A stretch of DNA of 43,954 bases from positions 1-43,954 of the forward strand of contig JAAOXS010000023.1 in the NCBI GenBank assembly GCA_018220985.1. The letters run 5' to 3'. Source of the stretch: Nanobdellota archaeon (lineage in GTDB: Archaea; Nanobdellota; Nanobdellia; PEZQ01). The position numbers and the translations under genes are program-made. Positions 1 through 37,087 of this stretch are shown piece by piece. The notes beneath the pieces are model-generated. The model saw only the letters and a list, made by a program, of their open reading frames with translations. It ran no database searches and had not been told where the DNA came from. Every line of letters starts with the position of its first letter. Within the stretch, counting starts at the first letter, position 1.

Positions 1-3000
1 CCCAAATTATCCGAAACATTAACCTCAAACAACCTAGACAAAGTCCAAGCCTCAACATCCAAATCAACACGAGCATCAACCAATTTGGGTTTAGTAAAGT
101 AATAAAAAATTTCATCCACCAAAGTTATATTTTCCCAATAATAGCTATCATTTGATTTAAATGTAACATTATAATAACCTGGACTTGCTTCTTGAGTTGG
201 TGACCAAGTACACTTATACACATTAGCACCCACCATTTCTACATTAGAACAAGTAGTATAATAATTTGATGTTGAAACATTATAAGTAATGTTATTTACT
301 GAAATACTCATAGCAGATCCACAGTCATTATCAATATATCCTTGTAAAAGAATTGATTGGGGATAAGTGTAATTTTCACTACCATCAGGCAAATCAATAA
401 CACCATTTAAATCCCCCCTAACAAATAAGTTTCTTGACAAAAAAGTTGATGTATCATTTTGTTTATAACAACTTAATTCTGAAGCATTCACCTCTGCTTT
501 CCATTGTTGCTCACCAACTTGAAATTCAGGAGCACCCGAATAATCATCTTGGCAAGTTGCATTAAATGAAAGATTAGCATAACCACCCGCACTTGTTAAA
601 ATAATAAAATTACTATCAGTGTAATAATTATCAGTGTTATTTGTAGTAGTAATTGAATATTTTATTGGAAAACTTGATAAATCAGTTCCATTAATATCAC
701 GAACGTAAAAAGATAATAATCTTGTTTGACTGCCAGTTCTATTTGCTATCTCCCCCTGCCCTGCAATGTAATTCATTAAAACAGTATTTTTTTCAACTGC
801 AAAACCTTGCGTTGAAGTACTATTAGTTGTTCCATTCATGTCTGTAGCATTAAAGAAGAAATATCTGCTATCATCCACACCAGTACAATTATATTCTTTA
901 GTAAAATTAAGAGTCTGCCAATTACCATCATCAATTGTGTAATTATCTTCACCAATAAGTGTCCACGGTCCTGAAGAATCATTACTATCCCATAAATAGA
1001 CAGTTACATTGTTAACTCCAGTTGTGTTAACTGTAACATTAAACTTAAAAGTTGTACTACCCCACTCACCAGTTGAAACATTTATTGATGCATTTTCAAG
1101 AGGAATTTTATAAGATGAAACTTTAACTTCAAAACTGTCAAGACCATTAGTCTCATTTTCCACCAAGCCAGTAACGTTGTTTACCATTTTAATCATGAAT
1201 TGCCAGGTCGCAGCATCAGATTCAGTGAAATTTCTATACCAGTAAACAATTTGATTTTCACAATTAGTGCATTTTATTGGAGTTTGATTTATGCAAGTGA
1301 TTAATGGACATTCAGACCAAGAACCACCTCCTTTTTTCAAAAACAGTTTAACATCCATTTCAGTAGAATCTCCTGACGTGGCGTTTACTGAAAAATTCCA
1401 ATTTTCAACAGTGTAAAAATCATTATCTGGAACCACTGCTTGTCCGAAAACTTTTCTGTAAGCATTTAAGTAGAAAGCGTTTTCAAGCGTGTAAGTTCCA
1501 TTCCAATAATTTAATGTTTCACTTCCTTCAGAATATGAAGTCATTGTCACATTATACCATCCTGTTGGAGCGCTTAATGGAAGCGTACTTGAACAAGAAG
1601 CACTGCTTGTAGGCGTACAATTATAAGTTGATGCACCATTTTCAATTGAGAAATTAACTGCGAAAGAATTATAGTCTGTTTTCGTGTTATCACAATCATC
1701 ATTTATTGTTCCAGTATAAGTTATACTATCCAAATATTGTGTGTAATTCGTGTTCCCATCAGGACTTGTCATTTGAGAATTTGAAAGGTTTCCTTTTAAC
1801 CAGAAAGGTAAAGTGCCCCATTCCAGACTTTCAAAAGTAATGTTATCTTTGTAGTATTGTGAGTTTGAACTGCCTGATTTCCAATAGTTTTGTCCAACAG
1901 AAAAAATTGCTTTACACCATGTTAAAGCATCATTAGTCATTTCACGGTTTAAATAACCTGTTGAATTTGGAAAATCATAAACATAATCTAAAGTATCATT
2001 ATCATTATATTTTGAAATTGCAATAAACGCTGTTGGCGGAGATTGAGTAAGATAATACGCAGTAGTATCATTGTCAGTATCATAAAAATAAGTTGTGAAA
2101 TTGTAAGTTTGTGAACGATTAATTGTAATATTGAATTCATGTGTTTTATTATCGACTTGCAAATTATCTTTTTCAATTTCAAAATAGTCTTCAGTAGCTG
2201 AAAAACTTGTATTACCAGTATAAGCACTTGAAGAGCTGTCAGTTCCATTAAAGAAAAAGAACACATCAGAATCAATATCAGATTCATTAAAAGTGACTGT
2301 TATATTAATGTTTTTGGAGTTGGTTAAGTTAGTATCATTAGCATACGCATAACCCCCATAAATCCAACTATCTGCAATACCATGTTTGTACCAAGCCAAT
2401 ACAGTCACGTTATCACCACTATCACCATTAGGGTCTAAAACATCAACGCTGAAATTAAATGACTCACCCCAACCTCCCGGATTAGGGTAAACTGTTTCAT
2501 TTCTCAACACAGGGCGAACAGACTCCCAGCACCAAGTATAATTTACTTGAAAAGTGTCAATTAGTAAAATAACTGAACCTGGATTATTACCATAAGCTGC
2601 TGATTGAATACTAGTACAATTCCAATCACTTTCAGTCCCATTATAACCATTACTCTCACTTAAAGAACAAGTGTTTGGAGAGCCAGCATTACCTGTTGCG
2701 CAAGTCCAAGCAGGACCAACAGAGCCACTAGCAGCAATCACAGGCGCATAAGCATTGTAAGTTGTAAAAGTGCCTGAACTGGGTGTAATACAATTTTTCT
2801 CTATTTGGTTGGATATTCTTTGAAACGCGTCACCAGAAGAGGAAGATGAACCTCCAACATTCAGCATTCGCGTATACGTTGTTATGTTACGCATATAACA
2901 ACCTTCCAAACCCGGGCAGACATAACCAAAATCCCAAGTATCATAAAAAAAAGCAAAAGTACCTGTACCTTTAGCAGCTGCAGCACTCCAAATAATATCA

Positions 3001-4586
3001 TCAACATAATAAGTACATGGATTAGCCTGCAAATCCCACTCATCCTCAGAAAGCATTGGAACAGTCCAACTAATCGTGTCAGGCACACCATTACCATTTA
3101 AATCTTCAAAAGTCACGTTATACTTGTTCAAATTAATATCTTTAGAATCATAAACAACTAAAGGTTCACTAAAAGAAGAAACACTACTATTCAACCTGCG
3201 TAAAGTTAAAAAACCATAAAGCTCCTCAGGAAAACCAGTACTAACACGAATACTAGTATAGTGAACATTATCATCACCAACAACTTTTATTTTCTTCCTA
3301 AAACCATCAATAGGATTTACTTCAATAACTGACTCTTCAACTGAAAATGGCGCAGGAGTTTCATAAAATATTTCTAACAAATCATCACTTAACAATTCTA
3401 AATTGTAAAAATCGTTTTTATCATCAGAATAAATTTTTGTTAACTTATTCTTAATTTTAGACACATCCACTTTCGAATTTTTAGGCAATGTAAGTTTAAA
3501 ATCATCTTTTATAGCACTTTTTAATTTAGATGATTCAATTGTTTTCTTCCACTTAACAGGCTCACCCACTTTAGCAGATAATTGTTCAACACTAATATTC
3601 AAATCAAAATCAGTACAAGGAACATTAATTGAAACACTAATTGATTTATCCTCAAAATCAAGCAAGTTCACAGAAGCATTATAAAAACCACATTGAGTCA
3701 CATTCAACAACCAAGAAACATTAACTTCATTATGTACATCAAAAACAACTTTCTTAACAACATCATCAGTAAAAATTTCATCAGGAACATCAAGTCTCAC
3801 AACTCGCGCTTCAGAATCATAATAATCAGAAACAACAAGAACAGTAAGATTAACAATTGAATCCGAAACAAATTCTGAAACAACATTATTCAAACTAGAA
3901 TGTTGAATAATCGCAAAAGAATCAATTAACAATTCAGGCCTACCATAATCCACCAATAGTTCACCATGATAAGCGTAAATTGCTTTCCAAACATAACTAC
4001 CTTCTAATTCTAATTGAAAAGAAAGATTATAAACTTCATTAAAATTCGAAGCGTTAAAATTCAACACTTCACCACTAGGCAAATGCATAAGAACAAATTC
4101 CACCCTATCAATTAGTTCAGGATTAAAAACACCAACTGACAAATTTACAAAATCGCCAACAAAACCAAAACTCGCATCAACATCATAAGTATCAATTGCG
4201 TTAAGATACGCATCATTCAATTTTTTATCATATTCAGATGAATCAACAAAAATACTTTCATTACCTTCATAAAATAACACATAATTTGTATTGTTCAACT
4301 CATTGAAGAAAACAATAACACCATCATCACCAGTTACATTCGTAAATATTTTATCACCAACCACCCATTTAATTAATTGGTTTTTTATAGGTGTTCCATT
4401 ATCCAGCAATAATTTTGCATAAATAACATTATCTTCTTCAATAACTTCAATCTTAGAACTTGCCCATACTTCAAAAACAGCTGATGTTTCCAAATAGTTC
4501 AAAGAATTTATAACAGCATTAACTGAAGGAATAAGAATTAATAAAAACAGTATAAGAAAAATTACTAATTTATTATTCAGAATCAT
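1..4586 (-). CDS. Giant secreted surface protein, at least 1528 aa, C-terminus beyond left edge of window
   Basis: Not in the ORF track because it runs off the window. Reading from ATG at 4586 (minus) gives MILNNKLVIFLILFLLILIPSVNAVINSLNYLETSAVFEVWASSKIEV..., a signal peptide followed by an apparently continuous frame to position 1 (...FEVNVSDNLG). Very rich in N-x-S/T sequons; contains DLNGNGVPDTISWTVP and Ig-like repeats. Confidence 0.85.
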   Translation of the reverse strand, partial: MILNNKLVIFLILFLLILIPSVNAVINSLNYLETSAVFEVWASSKIEVIEEDNVIYAKLLLDNGTPIKNQLIKWVVGDKIFTNVTGDDGVIVFFNELNNTNYVLFYEGNESIFVDSSEYDKKLNDAYLNAIDTYDVDASFGFVGDFVNLSVGVFNPELIDRVEFVLMHLPSGEVLNFNASNFNEVYNLSFQLELEGSYVWKAIYAYHGELLVDYGRPELLIDSFAIIQHSSLNNVVSEFVSDSIVNLTVLVVSDYYDSEARVVRLDVPDEIFTDDVVKKVVFDVHNEVNVSWLLNVTQCGFYNASVNLLDFEDKSISVSINVPCTDFDLNISVEQLSAKVGEPVKWKKTIESSKLKSAIKDDFKLTLPKNSKVDVSKIKNKLTKIYSDDKNDFYNLELLSDDLLEIFYETPAPFSVEESVIEVNPIDGFRKKIKVVGDDNVHYTSIRVSTGFPEELYGFLTLRRLNSSVSSFSEPLVVYDSKDINLNKYNVTFEDLNGNGVPDTISWTVPMLSEDEWDLQANPCTYYVDDIIWSAAAAKGTGTFAFFYDTWDFGYVCPGLEGCYMRNITTYTRMLNVGGSSSSSGDAFQRISNQIEKNCITPSSGTFTTYNAYAPVIAASGSVGPAWTCATGNAGSPNTCSLSESNGYNGTESDWNCTSIQSAAYGNNPGSVILLIDTFQVNYTWCWESVRPVLRNETVYPNPGGWGESFNFSVDVLDPNGDSGDNVTVLAWYKHGIADSWIYGGYAYANDTNLTNSKNINITVTFNESDIDSDVFFFFNGTDSSSSAYTGNTSFSATEDYFEIEKDNLQVDNKTHEFNITINRSQTYNFTTYFYDTDNDTTAYYLTQSPPTAFIAISKYNDNDTLDYVYDFPNSTGYLNREMTNDALTWCKAIFSVGQNYWKSGSSNSQYYKDNITFESLEWGTLPFWLKGNLSNSQMTSPDGNTNYTQYLDSITYTGTINDDCDNTKTDYNSFAVNFSIENGASTYNCTPTSSASCSSTLPLSAPTGWYNVTMTSYSEGSETLNYWNGTYTLENAFYLNAYRKVFGQAVVPDNDFYTVENWNFSVNATSGDSTEMDVKLFLKKGGGSWSECPLITCINQTPIKCTNCENQIVYWYRNFTESDAATWQFMIKMVNNVTGLVENETNGLDSFEVKVSSYKIPLENASINVSTGEWGSTTFKFNVTVNTTGVNNVTVYLWDSNDSSGPWTLIGEDNYTIDDGNWQTLNFTKEYNCTGVDDSRYFFFNATDMNGTTNSTSTQGFAVEKNTVLMNYIAGQGEIANRTGSQTRLLSFYVRDINGTDLSSFPIKYSITTTNNTDNYYTDSNFIILTSAGGYANLSFNATCQDDYSGAPEFQVGEQQWKAEVNASELSCYKQNDTSTFLSRNLFVRGDLNGVIDLPDGSENYTYPQSILLQGYIDNDCGSAMSISVNNITYNVSTSNYYTTCSNVEMVGANVYKCTWSPTQEASPGYYNVTFKSNDSYYWENITLVDEIFYYFTKPKLVDARVDLDVEAWTLSRLFEVNVSDNL

Positions 4587-6276
4587 CACCTACAATAAAC
4601 GATATCAAATCATTTACAACACCTTCCCTGTCAACTCTGAAAATATTTTTGGCAACTGAAAACTCCAACAAAGGTTTATCATCAGTAATTAATTGAACAT
4701 TATCAGAATAACCGTGTAAATCTTCATCAGCAAACATTAACAAGAATTCAATTCTATCAGCAGCATCTTCTGACTCAAAAAATTTAGGTAAAGAACTGTG
4801 AAGTATTACACTTGAAAGCATTTCACGGGATTCAGAGTCAAGTAAGTAAAAATTCTTAGCAATATTTTCCAATACAAACTCACTATCAGAACCAACAAGT
4901 ATCAATTCAGTAGGGTATGGACCTTGCCGTTCTTCTTTTCTAACATTAGCAAAAATCAGAATATTCTGGAACACTGAATTAAACGTAGCGTAAAAACTTT
5001 TGAAATCGCTAATGCTTAATTCATAAACAGGAATCCACTGAACAAACAAACCATTCTCATTCAAGTGGCGTTTAGAAAGTTCAAAAAATTCTTTAGAAAA
5101 TAATGAACTTGAAAAATCCTGCCAAGGGTCACTAGGTTCAGGAATGATAATGTCAAAATTTTCTTTTGATTTTAATAAATAATTTCTACCATCATCAAAA
5201 ACAAGTTCTATATTATTATTATTCAAAACATCTCTGTTAACATCACTAAAAAATTCAATAGTATCAAGTATTAAAGGCTCTATTTCAACAACTGAAGTAT
5301 CAAGACTAATTGCAAGGTGCCCTGCAGTAGTGCCAGTTCCTAACCCAATAATTAACGCATTACTAGGATTATCATGAAGCAGTAATGGAAGATAAGCCAA
5401 AAGATAATTCACACGCATATCAGTAACGCTTGTCCCACCCTGACCCTTACCATTAATCAAAAGAGACCTTACTTCACCACCCTCTTCCACAACATCAATG
5501 GTTGCGTATAATCCTTCATCATGAAATAATATTTTTTGAGAGAATAATGGTTCCCCTTCAAATAATAAAGCCCTATAAAAACCATTTTCGTAAATGTTAT
5601 AAACATCATAATTTGAGAATGTTGAAACACCAACAAGTATCAAAAATGCAAAAGGTATCAAAATAATTGTTTTTTTGTTAAATGCTGCTAACATAGAAAA
5701 AGCAAGTAAGTTAAGAACACCCCCAAATAACACAGCATTATTCACGCCAATAAAAGGTATCAACAATAACGAAGTTATGCTCGCACCAATAACAGCCCCA
5801 AAATTATTAAATGAGTATAACTCTCCAATATTAGTTTTTACATCTTTCTTTTTGTAAGAATCAACAAACACAGGCCAAGTCATGCCCATCAAAATTGTTG
5901 GAATAGATATTATCACGAAAACAAGCAAAAAAAGAAGTGGCATGAATATTTCAAAATTATAATAAAAAATTGTTAATTGTTTGTAAATTAACGGCATGAA
6001 ATTAAATGTCATCAAAGAAAGCATTGCAGTTATTGCTATGCAAAATTGGATGAACATTAACAATTTGTACGAATCAATTTTTTTTAATAATTTAGTTGAA
6101 ATTATTGAGCCCAATCCCAACCCAAGCATAAAGCAAGCAAAAATAATTGAAACTGTATAAACTGTTGAACCGAGAAGCATTTGAATTGGACGTATCCAGC
6201 TAATCTCATATATTAAAGCAGCCATACCCGAAAAAAGAGTTGCTAAAAGAATTAAATGGTTTTTCTTAATCTTCAC
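4573..6276 (-). CDS. Membrane-fused spermidine synthase-like protein (multi-TM N-terminus plus SpeE/methyltransferase-like C-terminus)
   Basis: N-terminal hydrophobic helices with YEISWIRPIQMLLGST and MGMTWPVF; C-terminal Rossmann segment ALIIGLGTGTTAGHLA...VVEIEP...DDGRNYL...IIPEPSDPW typical of membrane-fused spermidine synthase-like proteins. Confidence 0.85.
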   Translation of the reverse strand: MKIKKNHLILLATLFSGMAALIYEISWIRPIQMLLGSTVYTVSIIFACFMLGLGLGSIISTKLLKKIDSYKLLMFIQFCIAITAMLSLMTFNFMPLIYKQLTIFYYNFEIFMPLLFLLVFVIISIPTILMGMTWPVFVDSYKKKDVKTNIGELYSFNNFGAVIGASITSLLLIPFIGVNNAVLFGGVLNLLAFSMLAAFNKKTIILIPFAFLILVGVSTFSNYDVYNIYENGFYRALLFEGEPLFSQKILFHDEGLYATIDVVEEGGEVRSLLINGKGQGGTSVTDMRVNYLLAYLPLLLHDNPSNALIIGLGTGTTAGHLAISLDTSVVEIEPLILDTIEFFSDVNRDVLNNNNIELVFDDGRNYLLKSKENFDIIIPEPSDPWQDFSSSLFSKEFFELSKRHLNENGLFVQWIPVYELSISDFKSFYATFNSVFQNILIFANVRKEERQGPYPTELILVGSDSEFVLENIAKNFYLLDSESREMLSSVILHSSLPKFFESEDAADRIEFLLMFADEDLHGYSDNVQLITDDKPLLEFSVAKNIFRVDREGVVNDLISFIVGDDSE

Positions 6277-6850
6277 TCAAACCACCTCTCAATAAAAAAA
6301 CACCAATTAACAAATTAATTAATACTGCAATAATTGAAGTGGTTGTTAATCCTAATGCAGGAATTAAAGCAAAACCTGTAAGCAATGAGCCTGCAACGGC
6401 TCCAAAAGAATTTACAGCATATAATTCGCCAGCACCTTCACCGTTCTTATCTTTCTTCAAAAACGCTTTGTTAACAATAGGCCATGTTGCACCCATCATC
6501 ATTGCGGGAATCACAAGTATTGAAAAACATATTATTAATTGCAATATATTATTTGAAATTAAAACATACAATAGAGGTAGTATTTCAAATGCGAAAATTA
6601 ATAAAACAGCATAAATCGATATTAAGATTTGAATAATACCAAATGTTATTAATGATTTGTACTTGATTTTAACTCTTGAAATTATCAAAGCACCTAATGC
6701 AAAACCACTTAGAAAAGCTGTAAGAAGCAAAGATGCTGATTGAATTGTCGAACCAAAAATTAGTTGAAGTTCCCTTGTCCATACAATTTCGTACACGAAA
6801 GTGGTAAATCCTGTAGCAAAAAACATGAAAAGTAAAAATTTCTTACTCAT
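6266..6850 (-). CDS. Membrane protein homologous to the TM domain of the adjacent spermidine synthase-like protein, lacking the SpeE domain
   Basis: FVYEIVWTRELQLIFGST, MGATWPIV and GELYAVNSFGAVAGSLLTGFALIPALG align with LIYEISWIRPIQMLLGST, MGMTWPVF and GELYSFNNFGAVIGASITSLLLIPFIG of the 567-aa neighbour. Confidence 0.8.
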   Translation of the reverse strand: MSKKFLLFMFFATGFTTFVYEIVWTRELQLIFGSTIQSASLLLTAFLSGFALGALIISRVKIKYKSLITFGIIQILISIYAVLLIFAFEILPLLYVLISNNILQLIICFSILVIPAMMMGATWPIVNKAFLKKDKNGEGAGELYAVNSFGAVAGSLLTGFALIPALGLTTTSIIAVLINLLIGVFLLRGGLSED

Positions 6851-7766
6851 AACCTACCCCCACTTGTACTTCGTCCAGTCCAAGGTTTAATTCCAAAGAA
6901 CTTCTTACAGTTATGTTAATTGTGAAAGAAGACTCTTTTTCTAAAACCCCAATTTCTTGTTTTAAACCACCTTCAAAAACTTCAAAGAAATCAGGTAAAA
7001 ACCATTCAACAACAACATTTTTTGCAATGCCACCATTATTTCTTATTATACCTGAAAATTCAATTAGTTCACCGCGAACTATTTTTTTAGGGATTAATAA
7101 TTCAACAATAATTTTAGATGTTAAACACACTATTTCATTTATTTGCGTGCAATTCTCCACTAAGACCACAGTACAGTTCTCATAAGTTGAGTTGAACGGA
7201 GAACAAAAAGTTTCACTAGAACAAAAAATCTCATTAAGCGTTTCATTGAAATTGCATAATTCAAAAACAGAACAATTCTCATTAAGAACAGTCAAGTTTT
7301 CGCAAACAGTATTGTTAAAAGAATAACATTCATCTTTAGTTATGTTCTCACAAAAATCACCAAAGATTTCTGTAGCATTAATAACAAACACATCATAACT
7401 CTGGTTCGTATTAAAAACGATTTCAGCAGGGTTAACAGAAGAAGTTCCTGAACTAACAAAAAACTCATCCTTCAAAATCCAAGAACCATCATCTTCAACC
7501 CAAAATTGAACATTGAAAGCGTTGCTTTCAGAATCGTAAACAGAAACAGTGAAGTTAGTTGAGTTATCTTCAAATTCAATAACTGATTCGTTTAAGAAAA
7601 CAACACTACTCTCAGCAAAGGTTACAAGACCTGTAATACTCGCGAAAGGGCTTAAAAAATCATTATCATCAAGACTAAAAATGTTACTTGCGGAGTACGC
7701 TATTACGACTAACAGTAAGACTACTGTCAGTACTTTTCCTAACCCTCTCCCAATCGGGCTTTTCAA
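6843..7766 (-). CDS. Secreted/membrane protein with Cys/N-glycosylation-sequon-rich segment and CARDB-like C-terminal domain
   Basis: N-terminal hydrophobic segment VLTVVLLLVVIAYSAS; repeated CENIT/CENLT/NCTVV/NCTQ segment; C-terminal VRGELIEFSGIIRNNGGIAKNVVVEWFLPDFFEV Ig-like domain. Confidence 0.65.
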   Translation of the reverse strand: MKSPIGRGLGKVLTVVLLLVVIAYSASNIFSLDDNDFLSPFASITGLVTFAESSVVFLNESVIEFEDNSTNFTVSVYDSESNAFNVQFWVEDDGSWILKDEFFVSSGTSSVNPAEIVFNTNQSYDVFVINATEIFGDFCENITKDECYSFNNTVCENLTVLNENCSVFELCNFNETLNEIFCSSETFCSPFNSTYENCTVVLVENCTQINEIVCLTSKIIVELLIPKKIVRGELIEFSGIIRNNGGIAKNVVVEWFLPDFFEVFEGGLKQEIGVLEKESSFTINITVRSSLELNLGLDEVQVGVGYE

Positions 7767-7808
7767 TTCAACTCAACCTTCAACTTCACTGTGGACTCGT
7801 GAACTTAC

Positions 7809-8570
7809 TCACGAGATAAGCATAATTTCAACAAGAGAACGCAAACGTTCTCCAACCCCTTTTTTCACTTTCTCACCTTCCAAAATTAAGGCAAGCTCAT
7901 CAAATTTTCTTGAAGTTTTACTCTTTGGTTTATACAAATTAATTGGTAAATTCTTACTTAAACTTCTTATTATATTACCATCAAAATGTATTGAAATACT
8001 TACTGGTATACCTGTTAATTTTTCAATATCAGCCACTTTCAAAGAGTGCTGACGACGCACCATATTCATCACAATCCCAACTATATTCGCATTATTCTGA
8101 GCTAATACCTCCCTTAAACGCAGAACATCAAAAACACAAGGTTGTGTAGGATTCATAACAATCAAAACTTCATCACAAATAGATAACGTTGCTATACCTT
8201 CTCTTCCAAAACCAGGAGCAGCATCAAGAAGTACAAAATCATACTGTTCAATTCCTCCAAGAACAGATTTTAAATTCTTCAAATTATCATTATTATTACT
8301 AATTGTTGACAAAGAACCTGGAATAACATCAACACCCGAAGAATGATTGAAAATAGCGCTCTCAAAAGAAGATTTACCTGAAATTAAATCATTAATTGTG
8401 AAAACATAATTGTAAATTCCAAAATGAAAATTTAAATGAGGAGTAGTAGGGTTAAAATCAACTAACAAAACTTTCTTACCATTCTTAACAAGCGACACTG
8501 CAAGATTTGAACTAACAGTTGTTTTACCAACACCACCCTTCCCAGAAACTATTCCAATAACACGCGTCAT
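7809..8570 (-). CDS. MinD/ParA family ATPase
   Basis: Deviant Walker A GIVSGKGGVGKTTVSSNLA, VLLVDFNPTTPHLNFHFG, FVLLDAAPGFGREG; amphipathic-looking C-terminus GVGERLRSLVEIMLIS. Confidence 0.9.
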   Translation of the reverse strand: MTRVIGIVSGKGGVGKTTVSSNLAVSLVKNGKKVLLVDFNPTTPHLNFHFGIYNYVFTINDLISGKSSFESAIFNHSSGVDVIPGSLSTISNNNDNLKNLKSVLGGIEQYDFVLLDAAPGFGREGIATLSICDEVLIVMNPTQPCVFDVLRLREVLAQNNANIVGIVMNMVRRQHSLKVADIEKLTGIPVSISIHFDGNIIRSLSKNLPINLYKPKSKTSRKFDELALILEGEKVKKGVGERLRSLVEIMLIS

Positions 8571-10234
8571 TTCTCACCTTCTTTCTTCTCTTCAGCAGGC
8601 TTTTCCCCTTCCTCTTTCTTAGGCGCTTCTTTCTTATCCTTACCACCATCCTCTTTTGAACCGCCTTTCTTAACCAAACCTTTAAGCTTATTCGGAATTG
8701 ACTTAATTTTTTCAGGTAATGATTTTTTTGTAGCTTCCTTTACTTTTTCATTTTTTTCTTTTTCTTCCTGACGCTCCTTAACTTCTTTAACAACATTGTC
8801 AGATTGTAATTTCACACCTTTCTCACCTAACTGGTCTTTAATACTATTAAGACGCTCTTCACTTTTTGACTTTATTTCATCAAAAGAATCCTGAGAAATC
8901 TTACCTGACTTAAATTCCCCCTCAATAGATTCCAAAAACATACGCGTACGCTCCATTTTTTCCATTAAACCTTTAACAGTCTCAGCTTCCATTTTCTTTT
9001 TAACTTGCTCCATTAATTCAGGCCCTTTAATACCACCCTCGCGCAAACGAACAACCACACCAGGAGGCTCAACTTCCCTCCGAATATTCTTCATTATTTC
9101 AGTAGCGTACACACCCATCAACCTATCAAACTTCTTTCGAGAATAATGATTGTAAATAATTAAAGTAATCATAAAAATAACAAATAATAATACAAAACCA
9201 ATAATAACAGCAACATTTGAAACGCCACTTACTAAATTAGAACTTTCAAAAGAAAGTTCTCTTGATTCTCTTAAAATTTCATTAGCATTTGATAGCGCTA
9301 AAGACGCTTCAGTATAACGCGCTGAGCGCAAATACTGGCGTGCAAATTCAATCTGAACCTCCGCTTCAGAAACAAAACGTAAAGCTTCAGTAGCATTCTT
9401 TCCTTCAAGAATTAATTTTTGAATCTCCAAACGATAATCAGCAATTTCCAACTCCAATAAATTAATATCATAATTGATTAGTTCATGTTGCCCTGAAAAC
9501 GTGTGAAGAGAAAACTCGTGATAATTCCATTCACCTTCAGAAGTTACAACCATCAATGTAAAAGGATAATCAGCAGTCTCAGCATCAGGTAAAATGGAAA
9601 TTTCCATTGTGAATGATAATTCTTGAGCTGGATTGAATTCAGGATAGCTTAATGGAGCAATAGTGAACCAGTCAGAATTCGAACCTTCAACCAAAAAAGA
9701 AACATTATGATACGTATCATCACCCGTATTTTTTATTTTTGGACGAACATACTTTGGCTTGCCTTTTTCAGCAGTTATATCTTTCTCAATATTGGATATT
9801 TGAATAGTTTCTATTAGTGTACTTTGACTTTTGGGCAGAACATAAAAACTTGCACCTGTAGAAACAGCAGTAGATGATTCATCGAAATTAACACTAACCC
9901 TCAAATAATAATTTTGAGAAATTTGTGTTGAAAAAATATAAATTTCACGGTCAAGCGTCTTACTGTAAGGCGCATCCCCTGTTGATAATGTTGAAGATTC
10001 ATACGCCCACCGTTTTCCATCTTCAGATTCAACCCAATAAGAAATAACACCCTTACTCGCGTTCCCAGAAGTTTTATTTATGTTAATTGTAAAAGGTAAA
10101 AAATCTCCTTGATAAACTTTAACATTACCTAACTCAATTGATATAATACCATCAGAAACTTCTGAAAAAACAGGGTTTACACATGTAAAAAACAACAAGA
10201 CTACCACCACTAAAAATGATTTTTTCATCCCCAA
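8567..10234 (-). CDS. Type I membrane protein: Ig-like (NEW3-type) ectodomain, helical hairpin, TM, long charged cytoplasmic tail
   Basis: Signal peptide, beta-rich ectodomain, INLLELEIADYRLEIQKLILEGKNATEALRFVSEAEVQIEFARQYLRSARYTEASLALSNA helical segment, TM VAVIIGFVLLFVIFMITLIIYNHY, Lys/Glu-rich tail. Confidence 0.7.
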   Translation of the reverse strand: MGMKKSFLVVVVLLFFTCVNPVFSEVSDGIISIELGNVKVYQGDFLPFTININKTSGNASKGVISYWVESEDGKRWAYESSTLSTGDAPYSKTLDREIYIFSTQISQNYYLRVSVNFDESSTAVSTGASFYVLPKSQSTLIETIQISNIEKDITAEKGKPKYVRPKIKNTGDDTYHNVSFLVEGSNSDWFTIAPLSYPEFNPAQELSFTMEISILPDAETADYPFTLMVVTSEGEWNYHEFSLHTFSGQHELINYDINLLELEIADYRLEIQKLILEGKNATEALRFVSEAEVQIEFARQYLRSARYTEASLALSNANEILRESRELSFESSNLVSGVSNVAVIIGFVLLFVIFMITLIIYNHYSRKKFDRLMGVYATEIMKNIRREVEPPGVVVRLREGGIKGPELMEQVKKKMEAETVKGLMEKMERTRMFLESIEGEFKSGKISQDSFDEIKSKSEERLNSIKDQLGEKGVKLQSDNVVKEVKERQEEKEKNEKVKEATKKSLPEKIKSIPNKLKGLVKKGGSKEDGGKDKKEAPKKEEGEKPAEEKKEGEK

Positions 10235-10266
10235 AATATATTCAGGAAAACAATATTATTAAAGGT

Positions 10267-11904
10267 TTAGATAACTCCAGGACCCTCTTTTCTAAGATTG
10301 TTTAAGTACTTATTAAACAATGTTTTTTTACGTAAAAAAAACAAACCTGCAAATAAAAAAACTATGAATAACATTATTAAAAAAATAAAAGAATTATCCG
10401 AATTCTTTTCGGAAAAATACGCGTCAAACAATAATAAACTTTCATTAAGAACGATATCCACTTTCTCTTTAGCAAGGTATAAATCACTATTAACATGATT
10501 TGAAGCTTCGTCAAGAAGTATTTTCAATTCACTTATCTTAAAAACGTCTTCATCACTCTCCGAATTTGATAAAATATTATTCTCAAATATTGATAACATA
10601 ATGCTTAAATCACTGATTTCTTGAATTAATATTTCAGCATTAAGTTCTGAAGATTTAACATTAATAACCAATGATTCTTCACCCCGAGTATTTCTAACTT
10701 TAAGAATAATAAAACCTTCAGAAGAATTATCAGAAAAAAGTTTTACTAGAAAAGGAACAGTTATTCCCGAATCTAAATTTGAATAATATTTTGGGAAAAA
10801 ACTTGTAGAAAAATCAGTTGAAGTTTGTTCAAGTTTAAGTATGGTTGAAGGGAATTCATCACTAACAGAAATAACAAAAAAATGGTCTAATCCAATAGGA
10901 ATTCTTGAAAAATTACTATATTGCACAGTGAGACCTGTAAAAGTTGTTTCACAAGAACTTCGTGGATAAACTTCAACAAAAACTTTGACAATATCTTCAA
11001 AACCAAGATGAGATATTAATAATTCTGATTCATAACTTCCAGGAGATAATTCTTGAATTTCAAAACGAATATCTTTATACTCTTCAGATTCTAAAACAAT
11101 TTTATTTGAAATAATTGAAATTATAGAATTTGAAGGAAAAACACTAATGTTTAATTCTTCGAAACCCCCATTTTTTAAACGAATAGTTGAAAAATCCTTT
11201 TTATCAGGACATGTCTCAATGTAAGAATGTTGAGGCTCAACTAAAAGAAAAGGCCCTTTTCTCTCATCAAGTTTTAATAAAATACTTTTTTCAGAATTGA
11301 AAAGATTAAATGATATTTCTTTATTCTCATAAACATTACTATCAGTTATTAAAGTATATACGCCCAATGGTAAAAAATTAGAAAACCAGTAACCTTTATT
11401 AACGACACCAAAATCAACAATTTCTCCTTCAGAATTTAATAACGAAATGTTAAACGTGTGTGGGACTTCCTCACTAAATAATGATTCAACAACCAACCTA
11501 CCTAATTCAGTTCTAACAGTTACTGAAATATTCAAAACCAAAAATTGACCTTTAAAACTTGTTAATCTAATACTACCATTATACACACCCTCAGATGTTT
11601 CTTCAGGGATATTAATCTTAAATGAAACTTTTTGAGATTCTTGCGATGAAATCAAAAAATAAGTATCAAAAAAATTTATCCAATGTTCAAGTTCTCCAGC
11701 AGAAAACACTGTAAAACTTGTTGATTCATTACCTGAAAAAGCATTTATGTAAATTTCAAAATTAGTTGATGATTTTGGAATCATTGTTAATTCTATTGGA
11801 CTTTGTTCAAAAACAAGAATGGGCTCCTCTGCTTTTGCAATTAAAATCATTTGAAATATTACAAATAAAAACGAAATTATCTTAATTTTTTTAGCATCCA
11901 CCAT
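10267..11904 (-). CDS. Type I membrane protein with Ig-like ectodomain, juxtamembrane helical segment and C-terminal TM
   Basis: N-terminal hydrophobic signal; beta-rich ectodomain; ISELKILLDEASNHVNSDLYLAKEKVDIVLNESLLLFDAYF helical segment; TM NSFIFLIMLFIVFLFAGLFFL and basic tail. Confidence 0.7.
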   Translation of the reverse strand: MVDAKKIKIISFLFVIFQMILIAKAEEPILVFEQSPIELTMIPKSSTNFEIYINAFSGNESTSFTVFSAGELEHWINFFDTYFLISSQESQKVSFKINIPEETSEGVYNGSIRLTSFKGQFLVLNISVTVRTELGRLVVESLFSEEVPHTFNISLLNSEGEIVDFGVVNKGYWFSNFLPLGVYTLITDSNVYENKEISFNLFNSEKSILLKLDERKGPFLLVEPQHSYIETCPDKKDFSTIRLKNGGFEELNISVFPSNSIISIISNKIVLESEEYKDIRFEIQELSPGSYESELLISHLGFEDIVKVFVEVYPRSSCETTFTGLTVQYSNFSRIPIGLDHFFVISVSDEFPSTILKLEQTSTDFSTSFFPKYYSNLDSGITVPFLVKLFSDNSSEGFIILKVRNTRGEESLVINVKSSELNAEILIQEISDLSIMLSIFENNILSNSESDEDVFKISELKILLDEASNHVNSDLYLAKEKVDIVLNESLLLFDAYFSEKNSDNSFIFLIMLFIVFLFAGLFFLRKKTLFNKYLNNLRKEGPGVI

Positions 11905-13778
11905 GTTAAAAACCTCTTCTTAATAATTGAATTATATTCTATTAATTTATTTTTTTTCTTAAATAATATAAAAATAAAAAACATAATTAACACGCTAAAA
12001 ATTAAATAAACTAATAAATAATTTTGTTTCTCAATTGAAAAATTTTTTATTAAATCCACGAAAATAGTGAAATCTTCAGCAATTGCTCCAAGCCAAGCGT
12101 TTGCAATAAGTATATTCTCCGCGTCAAGAGCTGCTTCAACAGCAATAAGTTTTTCTTCAATTAAATTCAAATAATTCTCAGCATAAATCGTATCTCCACC
12201 CTCAATTTTAAATTTGTTAATCTGATTTTTAAAAGCATTAAAAGAAGAATTAAAATCTAAATATTCTTCGCGTAATTCATTAATAGTAAGTTCATCACTT
12301 ATAACTTCGTACACTAAAGTTCGAATAGTGCTATACGTTTGCGTTGTTAATTTAAGACTAATGTCCTTTATATTTGTCTCACTTAAAGGTTCAAGTTCTA
12401 TTAAAAAGTTTTTAGACTCGTTAATTTTTAACTCAGTATACTTATCCGGAAAAATAGAAACAGAAATGTTTTCAAAATTTTCAGCTGACAATCTTATATC
12501 AGTTAAATCAACTTCACCATCATTTTTAACACTTAAAAAAAATCGCTTAGAGTAACCCATTTTAACTATAATCCTACTCAAATCTTCTTCAGCAATGCTT
12601 GTTAATCCTTGACTTAATTCAAAATAAGTATTATTCACATTTATAAACAAATTAACAGAAGGTTTAGGTAAAGAAATTAACGTAATATTTCTTAAATCAG
12701 TAACTTCTGAAGAACCTGTTGAATCAGGTGAAAAATCACCAACCAAAACAGTTATTGGTAATGACGCATCAGACCATTTTGCATCTGCCTCAATATAACC
12801 TCCATAAATACCTCCATCCCACTTAGCTAAAACATAAATTGACACATTAACATATGACCCTGGAGCAATTTCATCAATTTCAGTATTACCCACAATCCTA
12901 AATAATTGATTATCCGTAGAATTAAGGTTTATATTTGTTTCAATACCAGTACCAACATTAGTTAATGCAACTTGAATAACGCCATCTTGCAATAAATTAA
13001 AAGTCATATATAATTGATCTGGCAACCACTCAAGTTTTGGTGTTCCCTTAAGTTCAGATGATAGTTTATGTAAAGCTTCTGAAATTTTAACACTATAACC
13101 TTTCAGCATATAACCCGTTTTTCTTATACTAAAAAGCAAATAATCATTATAATCATAAAAATGAGTATAATATATTCCATTCTCATCAGTATAACCTCGT
13201 TCATTAACACTCATATTAAAATAAACAGTTACTTTTGCGTTCTCTAAAGGTTGCCCTGCATTATCAGTGACGTTCACAAGAACACGACCAATTGAATCAT
13301 TAACTATTTGAATAGTTATATTAGTATAATTAGAAATACCTGATTCAACAACTGTAACATTAAATAACCCATTATAATTCCCTAACGTAAAATTAAAAAA
13401 AGTATCATCACTTGAATTAGTATTATTATGATCGTCTACGTAAAAAGAATCAATGTATAACGTATAATAATGCGTTTCATTAATTGAAAATGAATCTTCC
13501 CAACGAGAAAGATCACAAATTTGAGTTATGTTATCAGTAAAATTAAAAATAACATTTGTTTTCTTATTTCCCTCATATGCTGAAATATCAAATTTTCTAT
13601 AATCACTTGTACCTGGAAGCATTTTTATAAGAATTTCATCATACCCTAACAGAAAAGAATACGGTTTTTTTAATACTACCGTTGTTAAAGGTACGTTAGC
13701 AGAGTAATCAATACTACTAACAATATTAAATAAAAGAAATAAACTGACCAATAAAAGAATGCTTATTCTATACTTCAT
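11877..13778 (-). CDS. Type I membrane protein with carboxypeptidase-regulatory-like/Ig-like domains, helical segment and C-terminal TM
   Basis: Signal ISILLLVSLFLLFNIVSS; GRVLVNVTDNAGQPLENAKVTVYFNMSVNERGYTDENGIYYTHF; helical INELREEYLDFNSSFNAF...AENYLNLIEEKLIAVEAALDAENILIANAWL; TM YLLVYLIFSVLIMFFIFILF, basic tail. Confidence 0.7.
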   Translation of the reverse strand: MKYRISILLLVSLFLLFNIVSSIDYSANVPLTTVVLKKPYSFLLGYDEILIKMLPGTSDYRKFDISAYEGNKKTNVIFNFTDNITQICDLSRWEDSFSINETHYYTLYIDSFYVDDHNNTNSSDDTFFNFTLGNYNGLFNVTVVESGISNYTNITIQIVNDSIGRVLVNVTDNAGQPLENAKVTVYFNMSVNERGYTDENGIYYTHFYDYNDYLLFSIRKTGYMLKGYSVKISEALHKLSSELKGTPKLEWLPDQLYMTFNLLQDGVIQVALTNVGTGIETNINLNSTDNQLFRIVGNTEIDEIAPGSYVNVSIYVLAKWDGGIYGGYIEADAKWSDASLPITVLVGDFSPDSTGSSEVTDLRNITLISLPKPSVNLFINVNNTYFELSQGLTSIAEEDLSRIIVKMGYSKRFFLSVKNDGEVDLTDIRLSAENFENISVSIFPDKYTELKINESKNFLIELEPLSETNIKDISLKLTTQTYSTIRTLVYEVISDELTINELREEYLDFNSSFNAFKNQINKFKIEGGDTIYAENYLNLIEEKLIAVEAALDAENILIANAWLGAIAEDFTIFVDLIKNFSIEKQNYLLVYLIFSVLIMFFIFILFKKKNKLIEYNSIIKKRFLTWWMLKKLR

Positions 13779-13780
13779 AT

Positions 13781-14407
13781 TTATTTATTTGTAATTCGCG
13801 AATTATTAATTTTCCTTTTTAGAATAATAAACCCTACAAAAAAAGTTATCACCAAAATCATTAAAAAAAAATAAAAAATAAAATCATCAAAAAGGTAATT
13901 AAAATATGATAATTTATTAATAATTTTAACATCAATTACTAATTCTGTTTGTATGCCTGGAATTATTAAACCAGAATCCAACGGGCAAAAAGCATTAGCT
14001 GTTAATATTATTTGTTTTGAAGTACTAACTATTTCATTTTTATGTGCGCGAATAGTCACATACACCTCTTCTGAGGGTATTGGTATACCAGTTAATGGAT
14101 GAGGAACACTTGATTGTGATGAAGAAAAGTTAGGGCGTAATACTATATCATTTTCTTTATTAAGATTCACACTAATAAACAAATCAGTTTCTTCAAAAGA
14201 AATATTAACTAATGTTAAACCAGTGCCATAATAATTATACATACTCCAAGGAATAATAACTTCACCACCTGGAAAAATACTTATCTGAGTGTGTAATGGA
14301 GTACTACCAAAACTACATTTCGGCATTTCCTCTGCAAAAGCAAAACTTACAAAAAATAAAACAAACCCTAACAAAAATTTTCTAAACATTTTCTCAATAA
14401 GTACCAT
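13781..14407 (-). CDS. Small membrane-anchored secreted protein with one Ig-like domain
   Basis: Signal LLGFVLFFVSFAFA; beta-rich ectodomain; C-terminal TM FIFYFFLMILVITFFVGFIILKRKINN. Confidence 0.6.
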   Translation of the reverse strand: MVLIEKMFRKFLLGFVLFFVSFAFAEEMPKCSFGSTPLHTQISIFPGGEVIIPWSMYNYYGTGLTLVNISFEETDLFISVNLNKENDIVLRPNFSSSQSSVPHPLTGIPIPSEEVYVTIRAHKNEIVSTSKQIILTANAFCPLDSGLIIPGIQTELVIDVKIINKLSYFNYLFDDFIFYFFLMILVITFFVGFIILKRKINNSRITNK

Positions 14408-15692
14408 TAACTTTTACATTAATAGTTGAAGTATAATTTCCCTCCTCCAAATAACGATTAAGATATAACCACCAATAAACAGAATAAGTTGAATTTCCCT
14501 CATTAACAAATTCATCAACAACGTTAAAATCTGAAACCATTTGCGTTTTATTCCCATCACTCGAATTAGAATATGAAAGATTGCCACTACCAATTATAAT
14601 AGTACCATTTGATGTTAGAAAAGTAAGATCCTGACTGCTTAACCAAATACTTAAAGGAAAATTTGCTTCAATTGAAATGTTCATTGGAAAACCTTCAACA
14701 TTATTTGAACAAAAAGTATTATTCCCTGCATTCGCTTGAGCGAATTCATCATTAGGGTATAATAAACCAAAACAAATTGGCACACCAGATAATGTTACAA
14801 TCAAAACATCATCCCTAACTAAAACAGGAATATTAGGTGAAGGTGTTTCTTCACCAATATTTCCATTTGAATCATTAACCCATGAATTATTAATATATAA
14901 CGTGCCATATTCAGAACCGACAAATAAATTTGTTTCATAAGTACTATTTCCTCCACCACAATTACTTGTAGTATTACTTGTGGAAACATTTACAACAATC
15001 CCATTTGGGTATGTTGCTGTAATCCACGTTTGACTTATATTATATGTTCCTTTTATCACAGTGTGGTTAACACATATTGTTTTGTTAGGAGCAATTCCAG
15101 TAATGTTTACATCAGTTCCACTAATAATCGGATCACTAGTGTTATAAGTTAAATAAACCTCAACACCATCAACCATTATTATATCACCTAACTCAGCGTC
15201 TGTTGTACTCAGAACTAAATATTGTAATTTAACTCTAAAATTATTAACATGAGAAATTGTTGAAACGCTAGTTGAATAATTACCATACGTGCTTAATGAA
15301 AAAATAGGTTGTAAATTATCAACACTTATCCAAGATGACCCCCCATTTAATGAATAACTAAGTTTCACATAATCATCAGCCCAACTAATACTCGTATTCA
15401 ATCTTATTGCAAATTCAAGAGATAATATATCAATATTTTCTAACAAAATATCCTCAAAAGAAATACCATACGCTTCCCAACCCTGAAATATATTATTACT
15501 TTGAGTTGATTGCAAAATAGCTACGGAATCATCAAAAGACCCTAATAAATTTTCGGGATTTGTAATTTGTATTTGTTGTATGACATACGAATCATTAATG
15601 TACAAAGTAGTGTACTCAACAATAGCATTACCCAAACTTATGATTAACAATACTAATGGCAAAACCAAAAATAAAAACAACACCCCCCTCAT
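14394..15692 (-). CDS. Secreted sequon-rich protein without C-terminal TM
   Basis: Signal LFLFLVLPLVLLIISLGNAIVEYT; many N-x-S/T sequons; overlaps downstream gene start by 14 nt. Confidence 0.6.
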   Translation of the reverse strand: MRGVLFLFLVLPLVLLIISLGNAIVEYTTLYINDSYVIQQIQITNPENLLGSFDDSVAILQSTQSNNIFQGWEAYGISFEDILLENIDILSLEFAIRLNTSISWADDYVKLSYSLNGGSSWISVDNLQPIFSLSTYGNYSTSVSTISHVNNFRVKLQYLVLSTTDAELGDIIMVDGVEVYLTYNTSDPIISGTDVNITGIAPNKTICVNHTVIKGTYNISQTWITATYPNGIVVNVSTSNTTSNCGGGNSTYETNLFVGSEYGTLYINNSWVNDSNGNIGEETPSPNIPVLVRDDVLIVTLSGVPICFGLLYPNDEFAQANAGNNTFCSNNVEGFPMNISIEANFPLSIWLSSQDLTFLTSNGTIIIGSGNLSYSNSSDGNKTQMVSDFNVVDEFVNEGNSTYSVYWWLYLNRYLEEGNYTSTINVKVNGTY

Positions 15693-19051: not shown

Positions 19052-20146
19052 ATGGGGGTACAAAAAAAAATGGATTTCATAGTTCAAAGCGCATTAAGCA
19101 AAGACAACGAAGGTATTATTAACTTGGAAGCCGGACTTGAAAGTCAGGCAACAATCAAAGTTATTGGAGCAGGAGGCTGCGGCAATAACATGGTTCACTG
19201 GTTATTCCACAAAGGAGTGTCTGGAGCTGAAATAATCGCTATGAACACGGATAGTCAGCATTTAGACGCACGAGATGCTGATGTTAAAATATTAATTGGC
19301 AAAGAACTAACAAGAGGACTTGGCGCAGGAGGTTATGCTGAAATAGGAACTAACGCTGCAAGAGAAAGCTCTAATGAAATTAAAGAATCATTAAGAAACA
19401 CGGATATGCTCTTCATCTGCGCAGGCCTTGGAGGAGGAACAGGAACAGGTTCTTCACCAGAAATTGCCAAAATAGCAAAAGACTTAGGGTCAATTGTTAT
19501 TGGAACTGTAACTATGCCTTTCAAAATTGAAAGAGCAAGAATTGAAAAAGCGGAGTTCGGACTAAGTCAACTAAGACAAGTGTGCGATACAGTCATAGTT
19601 GTTGACAATAATAGATTAGTCGAACTCGCAGGTAATTTACCTGTTGAAAAAGCGTTTGCAGTTGCAAACGAACTCGTATCAACAATGATTAAAGGAATTG
19701 TTGAAACAATTGCGTTACCATCACTTGTTAACTTAGACTTCGCTGATGTTAAAGCAATAATGAAAAGCGGTGGCGTAGCAGCAATAGGCGTTGGCGAAAG
19801 CGACACTGAACGAAGAGTGGAAGAAGCAGTTAGTAAAGCAATGCAAAATCCTTTGCTTGACGTAAGTTACAAAGGAGCTGACGGCGCATTAATTCATATT
19901 ACCGGAGGCCCTGACTTAACCTTAGAGGAGGTTAACAAGGCAGGTGAGTTAATTACAGAAAGCCTTGATCCGGATGCGAATGTCATTTGGGGTGCTAGAA
20001 TACTTGATGACATGAAAGGAAAAATAAGAGTTATGGCAATTATCACTGGAGTCAGGTCACCATACATCCTAGGCGCTCTTGATTTTACAAAACCATCTCT
20101 TGAAGCTGAAAAAGTGTCTGACGAACTAGGCATTCGAATGATATAG
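19052..20146 (+). CDS. ftsZ: Cell division protein FtsZ (start may be ATG at 19070)
   Basis: [51 protein letters not shown] tubulin signature, T7-loop-like region [15 protein letters not shown]. Confidence 0.95.
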
Positions 20147-36295: not shown

Positions 36296-37087
36296 ATGAA
36301 ACGCGCAATAATTGTAGCGTTATTATTCATAACTAGCGCTATTGCTCAAGAAACAATACCATTCACTGACAAAAATTTAGCAACACTAGGTCCAAGCTTC
36401 ATAATAAGACCCGAAATAAAAATTCACAGCACAACACTAGGTGAAACAAGTTATTTCACAGTTAACATTAGCAATCCAGGCACTGTAAGCTTTCCTCAAA
36501 TAAGCATTCTAACAAATGAAACGTACTTGCAAAGAGCAACAGGAACGTTCAGCTTAAAAAAAGAAGAAGCTAAAACATTCAAGTTAAGTGTGAAAACAAA
36601 CAGTTCAGGAATTTTCATAAGTAACTTAAACTTTTCAAGTTATGATGTAAGAACAAGCATAAAACTAATTGTGCTCTCAAACGCGAATAATAACACTCCA
36701 AAAATAGTGTTAAGCAACACAGGATACAACACGCTTGAAAAAATTAACGCACTAATAACGATACCTAACAGTATTAACTCTTCAAAACTTTACTACGGGT
36801 TAATCAACTTAGAAGGAGAAGTTATGGGAGTAATGTCAAAAACAGTCCTCTCAAATGAAGAAATAAGTATTTCAATACCAATACCTAAAGAAGCAATTCC
36901 TGGAAAATACTTATTCTTCACATCACTTGACCAGCAAAGCTTTTCAGGAAAAATTATTGAAATCACAACACTAATCTCAATTCAAACACTAATAATCCTT
37001 GGACTATTGATTGTAGGAGTAAGCGCACTCTTTCAAGCAGGTAAACTACGTAAAAAAGAAAACCAAGTTAAAAACTTAATTGAGTAA
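36296..37087 (+). CDS. Membrane-anchored secreted protein with Ig-like domain and C-terminal TM
   Basis: Signal AIIVALLFITSAIA; ETSYFTVNISNPGTVSFPQISILTNE; TM IQTLIILGLLIVGVSALFQAG. Confidence 0.65.
   Translation: MKRAIIVALLFITSAIAQETIPFTDKNLATLGPSFIIRPEIKIHSTTLGETSYFTVNISNPGTVSFPQISILTNETYLQRATGTFSLKKEEAKTFKLSVKTNSSGIFISNLNFSSYDVRTSIKLIVLSNANNNTPKIVLSNTGYNTLEKINALITIPNSINSSKLYYGLINLEGEVMGVMSKTVLSNEEISISIPIPKEAIPGKYLFFTSLDQQSFSGKIIEITTLISIQTLIILGLLIVGVSALFQAGKLRKKENQVKNLIE

Follow-up and report, generated by a model that had tools for sequence, protein, structure and literature searches.

The left end of a 43,954-nucleotide contig from a Nanobdellota archaeon (JAAOXS010000023.1, assembly GCA_018220985.1; the whole contig, G000:C16, is the window analysed here) carries ten minus-strand genes that very likely represent a conserved locus with a SPEARE-type giant surface protein. 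Taken as a whole, the best available account of this locus, held with a confidence somewhat above even, is that of a surface attachment organelle composed of three modules. In the first module, a SPEARE-type giant would place thousands of residues outside the cell, cross the membrane through one transmembrane (TM) segment and carry a HerA/VirB4-like ATPase inside. Because ATPases of this family form hexameric rings, several giants may be held at one ring. In the second module, secreted pilin-like subunits (SUB), some with an N-terminal binding domain, would each be paired with a membrane-tethered, PapD-like immunoglobulin (Ig) protein (CHAP). CHAP would donate a strand to the unfinished SUB fold, following which SUB would be handed to the next subunit or kept displayed at the membrane. 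The third module comprises the Ig scaffolds A, B and C, wherein the cytoplasmic tail of C would bind a dedicated MinD that places assembly at one membrane site. The genome assembly, from a DPANN-type archaeon, comprises 24 contigs totalling 661,534 bases, with a completeness of 84%.

The conservation of the locus was probed using protein C as a query against 58 relatives and a wider sample of 383 genomes of the class. Full-length matches, each with a MinD gene beside it, were found in four genomes of other families: Ca. Jingweiarchaeum tengchongense (L048/L053), Ca. Haiyanarchaeum thermophilum (L050/L054), the Guaymas metagenome-assembled genome Nanoarchaeota B33_G15 (L010/L055) and Parvarchaeota Meg22_46 (L051/L056). 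Among the 383 genomes, full-length C occurs in these four and the window's own genome only. An earlier note on this DNA had set conservation of gene order as a check beforehand, and the order is kept in all four DPANN genomes, with a pair of spermidine-synthase-related (SpeE) genes peculiar to the window among the compared loci. The orthologues are only ~23-47% identical over most of their length, and the shared order is therefore not recent synteny. Furthermore, the clustering is more than chance, as the order is kept across families while the GatD/GatE genes flanking the window locus are not beside the relatives' loci. The window layout, on a single strand, is large SUB-CHAP-A-B-C-MinD-Cys-rich-(SpeE pair)-giant. 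The Jingweiarchaeum genes all lie on one contig, with SUB-CHAP-SUB-CHAP-A-B on one strand and C-MinD-LamG protein-large SUB-giant-coiled coil-coiled coil-D315 on the other.

The giant is seen in contiguous form in Jingweiarchaeum, where an open frame of 12,056 amino acids (aa) ends in NEW3-type domains, a TM segment and a cytoplasmic HerA-like ATPase with Walker motifs (PF05872 2.6e-10, PF01935 2.7e-8); this tail also matches T4SS-DNA_transf at 1.1e-4, just over the cut-off. The long extracytoplasmic part contains adhesion/Ig domains, as in SPEARE-type proteins. Giant frames in the relatives range from 2,422 to 12,056 aa, and the window part stops at the contig edge after 1,529 aa. At a second Jingweiarchaeum locus (L049), a giant-HerA gene is succeeded by genes for a coiled-coil protein, for a C-tailed protein of 1,712 aa and finally for MinD. 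In the class-wide sample, the HerA tails that score highest (E < 1e-185) belong to the five core genomes and to G028 and G158, which also have C-like proteins. In the window's genome the sole HerA tail of this kind is a 5'-open reading frame at the right-hand edge of contig C5 (L219:12917-14899), with a coiled-coil gene (7e-46) and D315 (9e-62) after it, as in the relatives. This tail is 53-57% identical over ~620 aa to the tails of four giants, and its Walker A (GGTGSGKT) and Walker B (VYDEVHRLL) motifs are intact. Based on these sequences, the window giant very probably ends on C5 as a TM helix and HerA/VirB4-like ATPase, and we infer that the giant gene spans a junction between C5 and C16. 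The earlier note described a giant adhesin-like protein; the second half of the locus, on another contig, lay outside its view.

Several further features of the giants and their neighbors were observed. If an upstream start codon is used, the 12,056-aa frame opens with a winged-helix-like stretch before the N-terminal TM segment (L048:1-4392). Two Jingweiarchaeum HerA tails (L161:3725-5164 and L049:2867-4306) are identical over ~75 aa and 61% identical overall, as if from gene conversion or strong constraint. D315 (L161:654-1601, L219:8829-9734, L222:5688-6566, L224:9580-10488) is an uncharacterised family of ~300 aa with no Pfam match over the cut-off, and is the last gene of the conserved giant-HerA/coiled-coil set. 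The giants of a second locus type, found in other families (L149:7750-9141, L151:8546-10162, L157:7782-11309), end in a SUB-like domain, a conserved LLVAxIPxKK segment and a duplicated helix-turn-helix-like domain, which suggests DNA-binding tails on surface proteins.

The SUB fold was modelled with AlphaFold using a small Jingweiarchaeum relative of the window protein (L048:10303-10854; 13 sequences), giving a mean predicted local distance difference test (pLDDT) score of 85.5, with most of the beta domain above 90. Chaperone-usher pilins, including CsuA/B, CS20, PapA, CupE, FimA and Caf1, make up 38 of the top 50 Foldseek matches in the PDB, the remainder being glycosidase domains (10) and cannula-type tubes (2). 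The best match is CsuA/B (6fq0_B; prob 1.00, E 1.9e-3). Judging from this model, SUB in all likelihood has a pilin-like fold. The window protein is connected to the small SUB proteins (~180-217 aa) through L048:4523-6706, which it matches at 1e-13 by BLASTP and which itself matches the small-subunit profile at 3e-6. Its C-terminal pilin-like domain lies behind a different N-terminal domain, the two-domain layout of tip adhesins such as FimH and CsuE. A search of PDB sequences with the SUB and CHAP profiles returned only weak glycosidase or chance matches.

The AlphaFold model of CHAP (pLDDT 83.7) contains one Ig domain with a long last strand that runs into the TM segment. PapD-like pilus chaperones account for 21 of its 50 PDB matches by Foldseek, including CsuC of the same 6fq0 complex, while the others are different Ig-like folds, some of them pilus subunits. 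Each of the nine CHAP genes identified follows immediately after a SUB gene. The SUB-CHAP pair recurs in the second locus type beside the other giants, and its parts are homologous by profile (5.8e-6, 2.2e-16). The invariant Arg/Lys of the PapD cleft was not found in the CHAP alignment. On balance, a role for CHAP as a strand-donating chaperone is slightly favored. A further small protein with signal peptide, Ig-like domain and TM segment, resembling CHAP in layout, is encoded at 36296-37087 in the window after a proteasome alpha-subunit-like gene.

Among the scaffolds, B has an L048 orthologue that is similar to the WxLIP host-binding domain (PF11797 E 6.9e-6, short of the curated cut-off), and the tail of C ends in a helical motif that by eye is SHOCT-like. 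An A-like scaffold with an apparent OB-fold cytoplasmic tail (L148:10149-12233) belongs to a SUB-CHAP locus whose other strand carries a different MinD. The MinD/ParA identity proposed by the earlier note holds, as the window protein matches TIGR01969 at E 3.5e-50, albeit below the curated cut-off, and has the signature Lys of the deviant Walker A motif and, as judged by eye, a putative membrane-targeting C-terminal helix. C and MinD stay paired in seven loci, and in four of the five core loci their genes share an identical 4-bp overlap. The locus MinD groups with the other MinDs that neighbor a C tail in a single clade (support 100/98). Three further MinD-like genes that match about as strongly are present in the genome, and no MinD gene examined outside this clade adjoins a C-type tail. 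Having its own clade and adjoining only C tails supports the locus MinD as a dedicated partner of C. Haloarchaeal MinD-like proteins are reported to affect archaellum positioning (PMC11588486, PMC11621097, PMC6509185). By analogy, the view that MinD positions assembly through C is narrowly favored.

Table 1. Genes of the surface locus in the window, with the basis for each assignment.
Feature	Position	Strand	Basis
Two-domain secreted protein (large SUB): variable N-terminal domain, C-terminal pilin-like domain (~residues 285-432)	14394..15692	-	BLASTP, alignment, relative's fold
CHAP: signal peptide, one Ig domain (PapD-like fold), TM directly after last strand	13781..14407	-	AlphaFold, Foldseek
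Scaffold A: Ig ectodomain, juxtamembrane helices, TM, short tail	11877..13778	-	Orthologues L048 (E 5e-38), L050 (E 1e-47)
Scaffold B: Ig ectodomain, TM, short tail	10267..11904	-	Orthologues in L048, L050, L051, L010
Scaffold C: NEW3-like Ig domain, helices, TM, long conserved cytoplasmic tail	8567..10234	-	Full-length orthologues, 4 other genomes
MinD paralogue: deviant Walker A KGGVGKT, C-terminal amphipathic-looking helix	7809..8570	-	TIGR01969, tree, alignment
Cys/sequon-rich secreted protein: N-terminal TM, ITGL motif	6843..7766	-	Similar-looking gene after MinD in L051
Half-MFS membrane protein of fused MFS/spermidine-synthase family, outside conserved core	6266..6850	-	NF037959 1.1e-10
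MFS-half and spermidine-synthase-like (SpeE) domain, outside conserved core	4573..6276	-	PF01564 E 1.9e-15
N-terminal 1,529 aa of SPEARE-type giant surface protein, runs off contig	3..4589	-	35% identity, 6e-56, to part of 12,056-aa giant

The ten reading frames run from 15692 to the left edge, where the last is cut by the end of the contig, and the gaps between them (-14, +2, -28, +32, -4, +42, -8, -11 and -17 bp) are operon-like. N-terminal signal or TM segments are predicted on all surface proteins of the run, and a second, C-terminal TM segment on the 13781, 11877, 10267 and 8567 proteins (CHAP and scaffolds A-C). These results agree with the ten genes and four TM-anchored Ig-like proteins described by the earlier note. 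Its proposal of a machine organised by MinD through cytoplasmic tails stands in part: the surface machine is conserved and MinD is linked to one tail, but only the 8567 tail is long (~190 aa; the other three are ~10-30 aa). Likewise, the membrane/SpeE pair retains its identity (PF01564, half-MFS) but not its place as a conserved machine part, being absent from the relatives' loci. The note did not recognise the gene set as a named system, but parts of it are recognisable, as the giant belongs with SPEARE-type giants and the 14394 and 13781 proteins have chaperone-usher-like predicted folds. The ITG-type motif, [ILV]TG[hydrophobic, A or N] no more than 35 residues beyond the N-terminal TM segment, is present in 29 of 203 secreted-type proteins (duplicates included) compared with 2.4-2.9% expected. 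It is often ITGxA, occurs in the window at 6843-7766 and in many loci, and is perhaps an unusual processing site. As a signal-peptidase site fits equally, its reading as a donor-strand signature was set aside and the motif is not used as evidence.

Nanohaloarchaeal SPEARE giants with a VirB4/TraG-like ATPase have been described and a secretion role proposed for them (PMC6642349, PMC10266531). In layout as published (Hamm 2019, PMC6642349; PMC10266531), the level at which the comparison was made, they share a giant adhesion/Ig ectodomain, a C-terminal TM segment, a cytoplasmic VirB4/TraG/HerA-type ATPase and a coiled-coil region. In contrast to SPEARE loci, the giant here sits among SUB/CHAP pairs, the three scaffolds and a MinD of its own, and coiled-coil and D315 genes stand downstream of it in place of a second VirB4. 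The archaic chaperone-usher pili of bacteria (Csu: CsuA/B-CsuC) are similar in predicted subunit fold, PapD-like partner fold, a chaperone-like gene beside each subunit gene and a two-domain adhesin layout. However, the present system is archaeal and its partner is one Ig domain with a TM anchor, not a two-domain periplasmic PapD chaperone. No outer-membrane usher was recognised among the locus genes by Pfam, a genome-wide usher search not having been made. Archaeal threads and cannulae are likewise archaeal filaments of beta-sandwich subunits, and cannula structures appear among the SUB matches, whereas thread structures are absent from the top 50. Threads (Saci_0406) use donor strands, and neither chaperone nor usher could be assigned in their locus (PMC9715654). 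The WxL/WxLIP clusters of Firmicutes have a three-part design that includes a TM-anchored Ig partner predicted to donate a strand (PMC10599100). Those clusters resemble the locus in combining a small protein, a large protein with a C-terminal display domain and a TM-anchored Ig partner, and differ in that no WxL domain was detected here and neither giant ATPase nor MinD is described there. Haloferax MinD2 and MinD4 are comparable as archaeal MinD homologues that influence the positioning of surface machinery. To our knowledge, their genes do not lie beside a tail-protein gene. The Jingweiarchaeum description paper mentions archaellum and pilin genes, and a term search of it found neither SPEARE nor surface proteins.

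Other explanations were considered. The giant and its ATPase could build a type IV-secretion-like channel where contact is made, a SPEARE-type secretion or DNA-transfer apparatus with SUB/CHAP and A/B/C as accessory adhesins. This is consistent with the secretion role proposed for nanohaloarchaeal giants of the same layout (PMC10266531) and with the T4SS-DNA_transf match of the HerA tail. However, a VirB4/TraG partner ATPase over the cut-off is absent from six of the seven system genomes tested (the G158 match is on another contig), no VirB6/8/9-like genes were recognised in the locus, and coiled-coil genes replace the second downstream ATPase of the nanohaloarchaea, leaving this explanation rather unlikely. 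In a WxL-like display system, the Ig and TM proteins would permanently clamp secreted beta-sandwich adhesins at the membrane and a fibre would never form. The WxLIP_HBD match of L048 scaffold B and the single large SUB and CHAP of the window agree with such an arrangement, but that match is below the cut-off, the SUB fold matches pilins, and WxL membership was rejected for want of any WxL-domain Pfam match (E < 1) in the SUB proteins; WxL-like display is decidedly unlikely.

That independent surface genes have clustered by chance, with MinD serving cell division, is very improbable. Clustering is common for surface genes and FtsZ is encoded at 19052-20146, but gene order persists from family to family, membership of the MinD clade goes with the C tail and the genome has three other MinD-like genes. 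A type IV pilus or archaellum locus is hardly credible, despite the T2SSE-type ATPases in the genome and the effect of haloarchaeal MinD-like proteins on archaellum positioning. The T2SSE-type ATPases map to contigs other than this one, SUB is predicted to fold like chaperone-usher subunits, and the locus genes have no T2SSE/T2SSF or type IV pilin Pfam matches; type IV pilus identity was ruled out because the machinery is absent from the locus.

Several observations weigh against the three-module organelle. The giant's two halves are on different contigs, and a genome of the same family (G001) lacks full-length C, CHAP and the HerA tail. No SUB match in Foldseek has E < 1e-3. The CHAP Ig fold also matches glycosidase, MSP and HYDIN domains, and hence the fold alone does not prove chaperone function. 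The evidence for MinD positioning is confined to adjacency and phylogeny. Finally, no small rod-type SUB was found in a search of the 84% complete genome, which counts against a long fibre in this organism, and the system here may serve adhesin display rather than fibre formation.

The combination of a SPEARE-type giant, pilus-like subunits with tethered chaperones and a positioning ATPase is provisionally new, within a literature search that took in few subscription journals or preprints. Tentatively, the locus may encode an archaea-native, chaperone-assisted donor-strand adhesin or pilus system with single-Ig tethered chaperones, coupled to an ATPase-tailed giant and placed by MinD, as one polarised organelle for host holding and exchange, possibly including cargo transfer. 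SPEARE giants, previously without a defined partner set, are a leading candidate for the means by which host-dependent DPANN archaea grip their hosts. The locus supplies such a set, made up of pilin-like adhesins each with its chaperone, the scaffolds, the coiled-coil proteins, D315 and MinD, and CHAP is a candidate for the chaperone of archaeal donor-strand assembly that was sought in the thread study and left unassigned.
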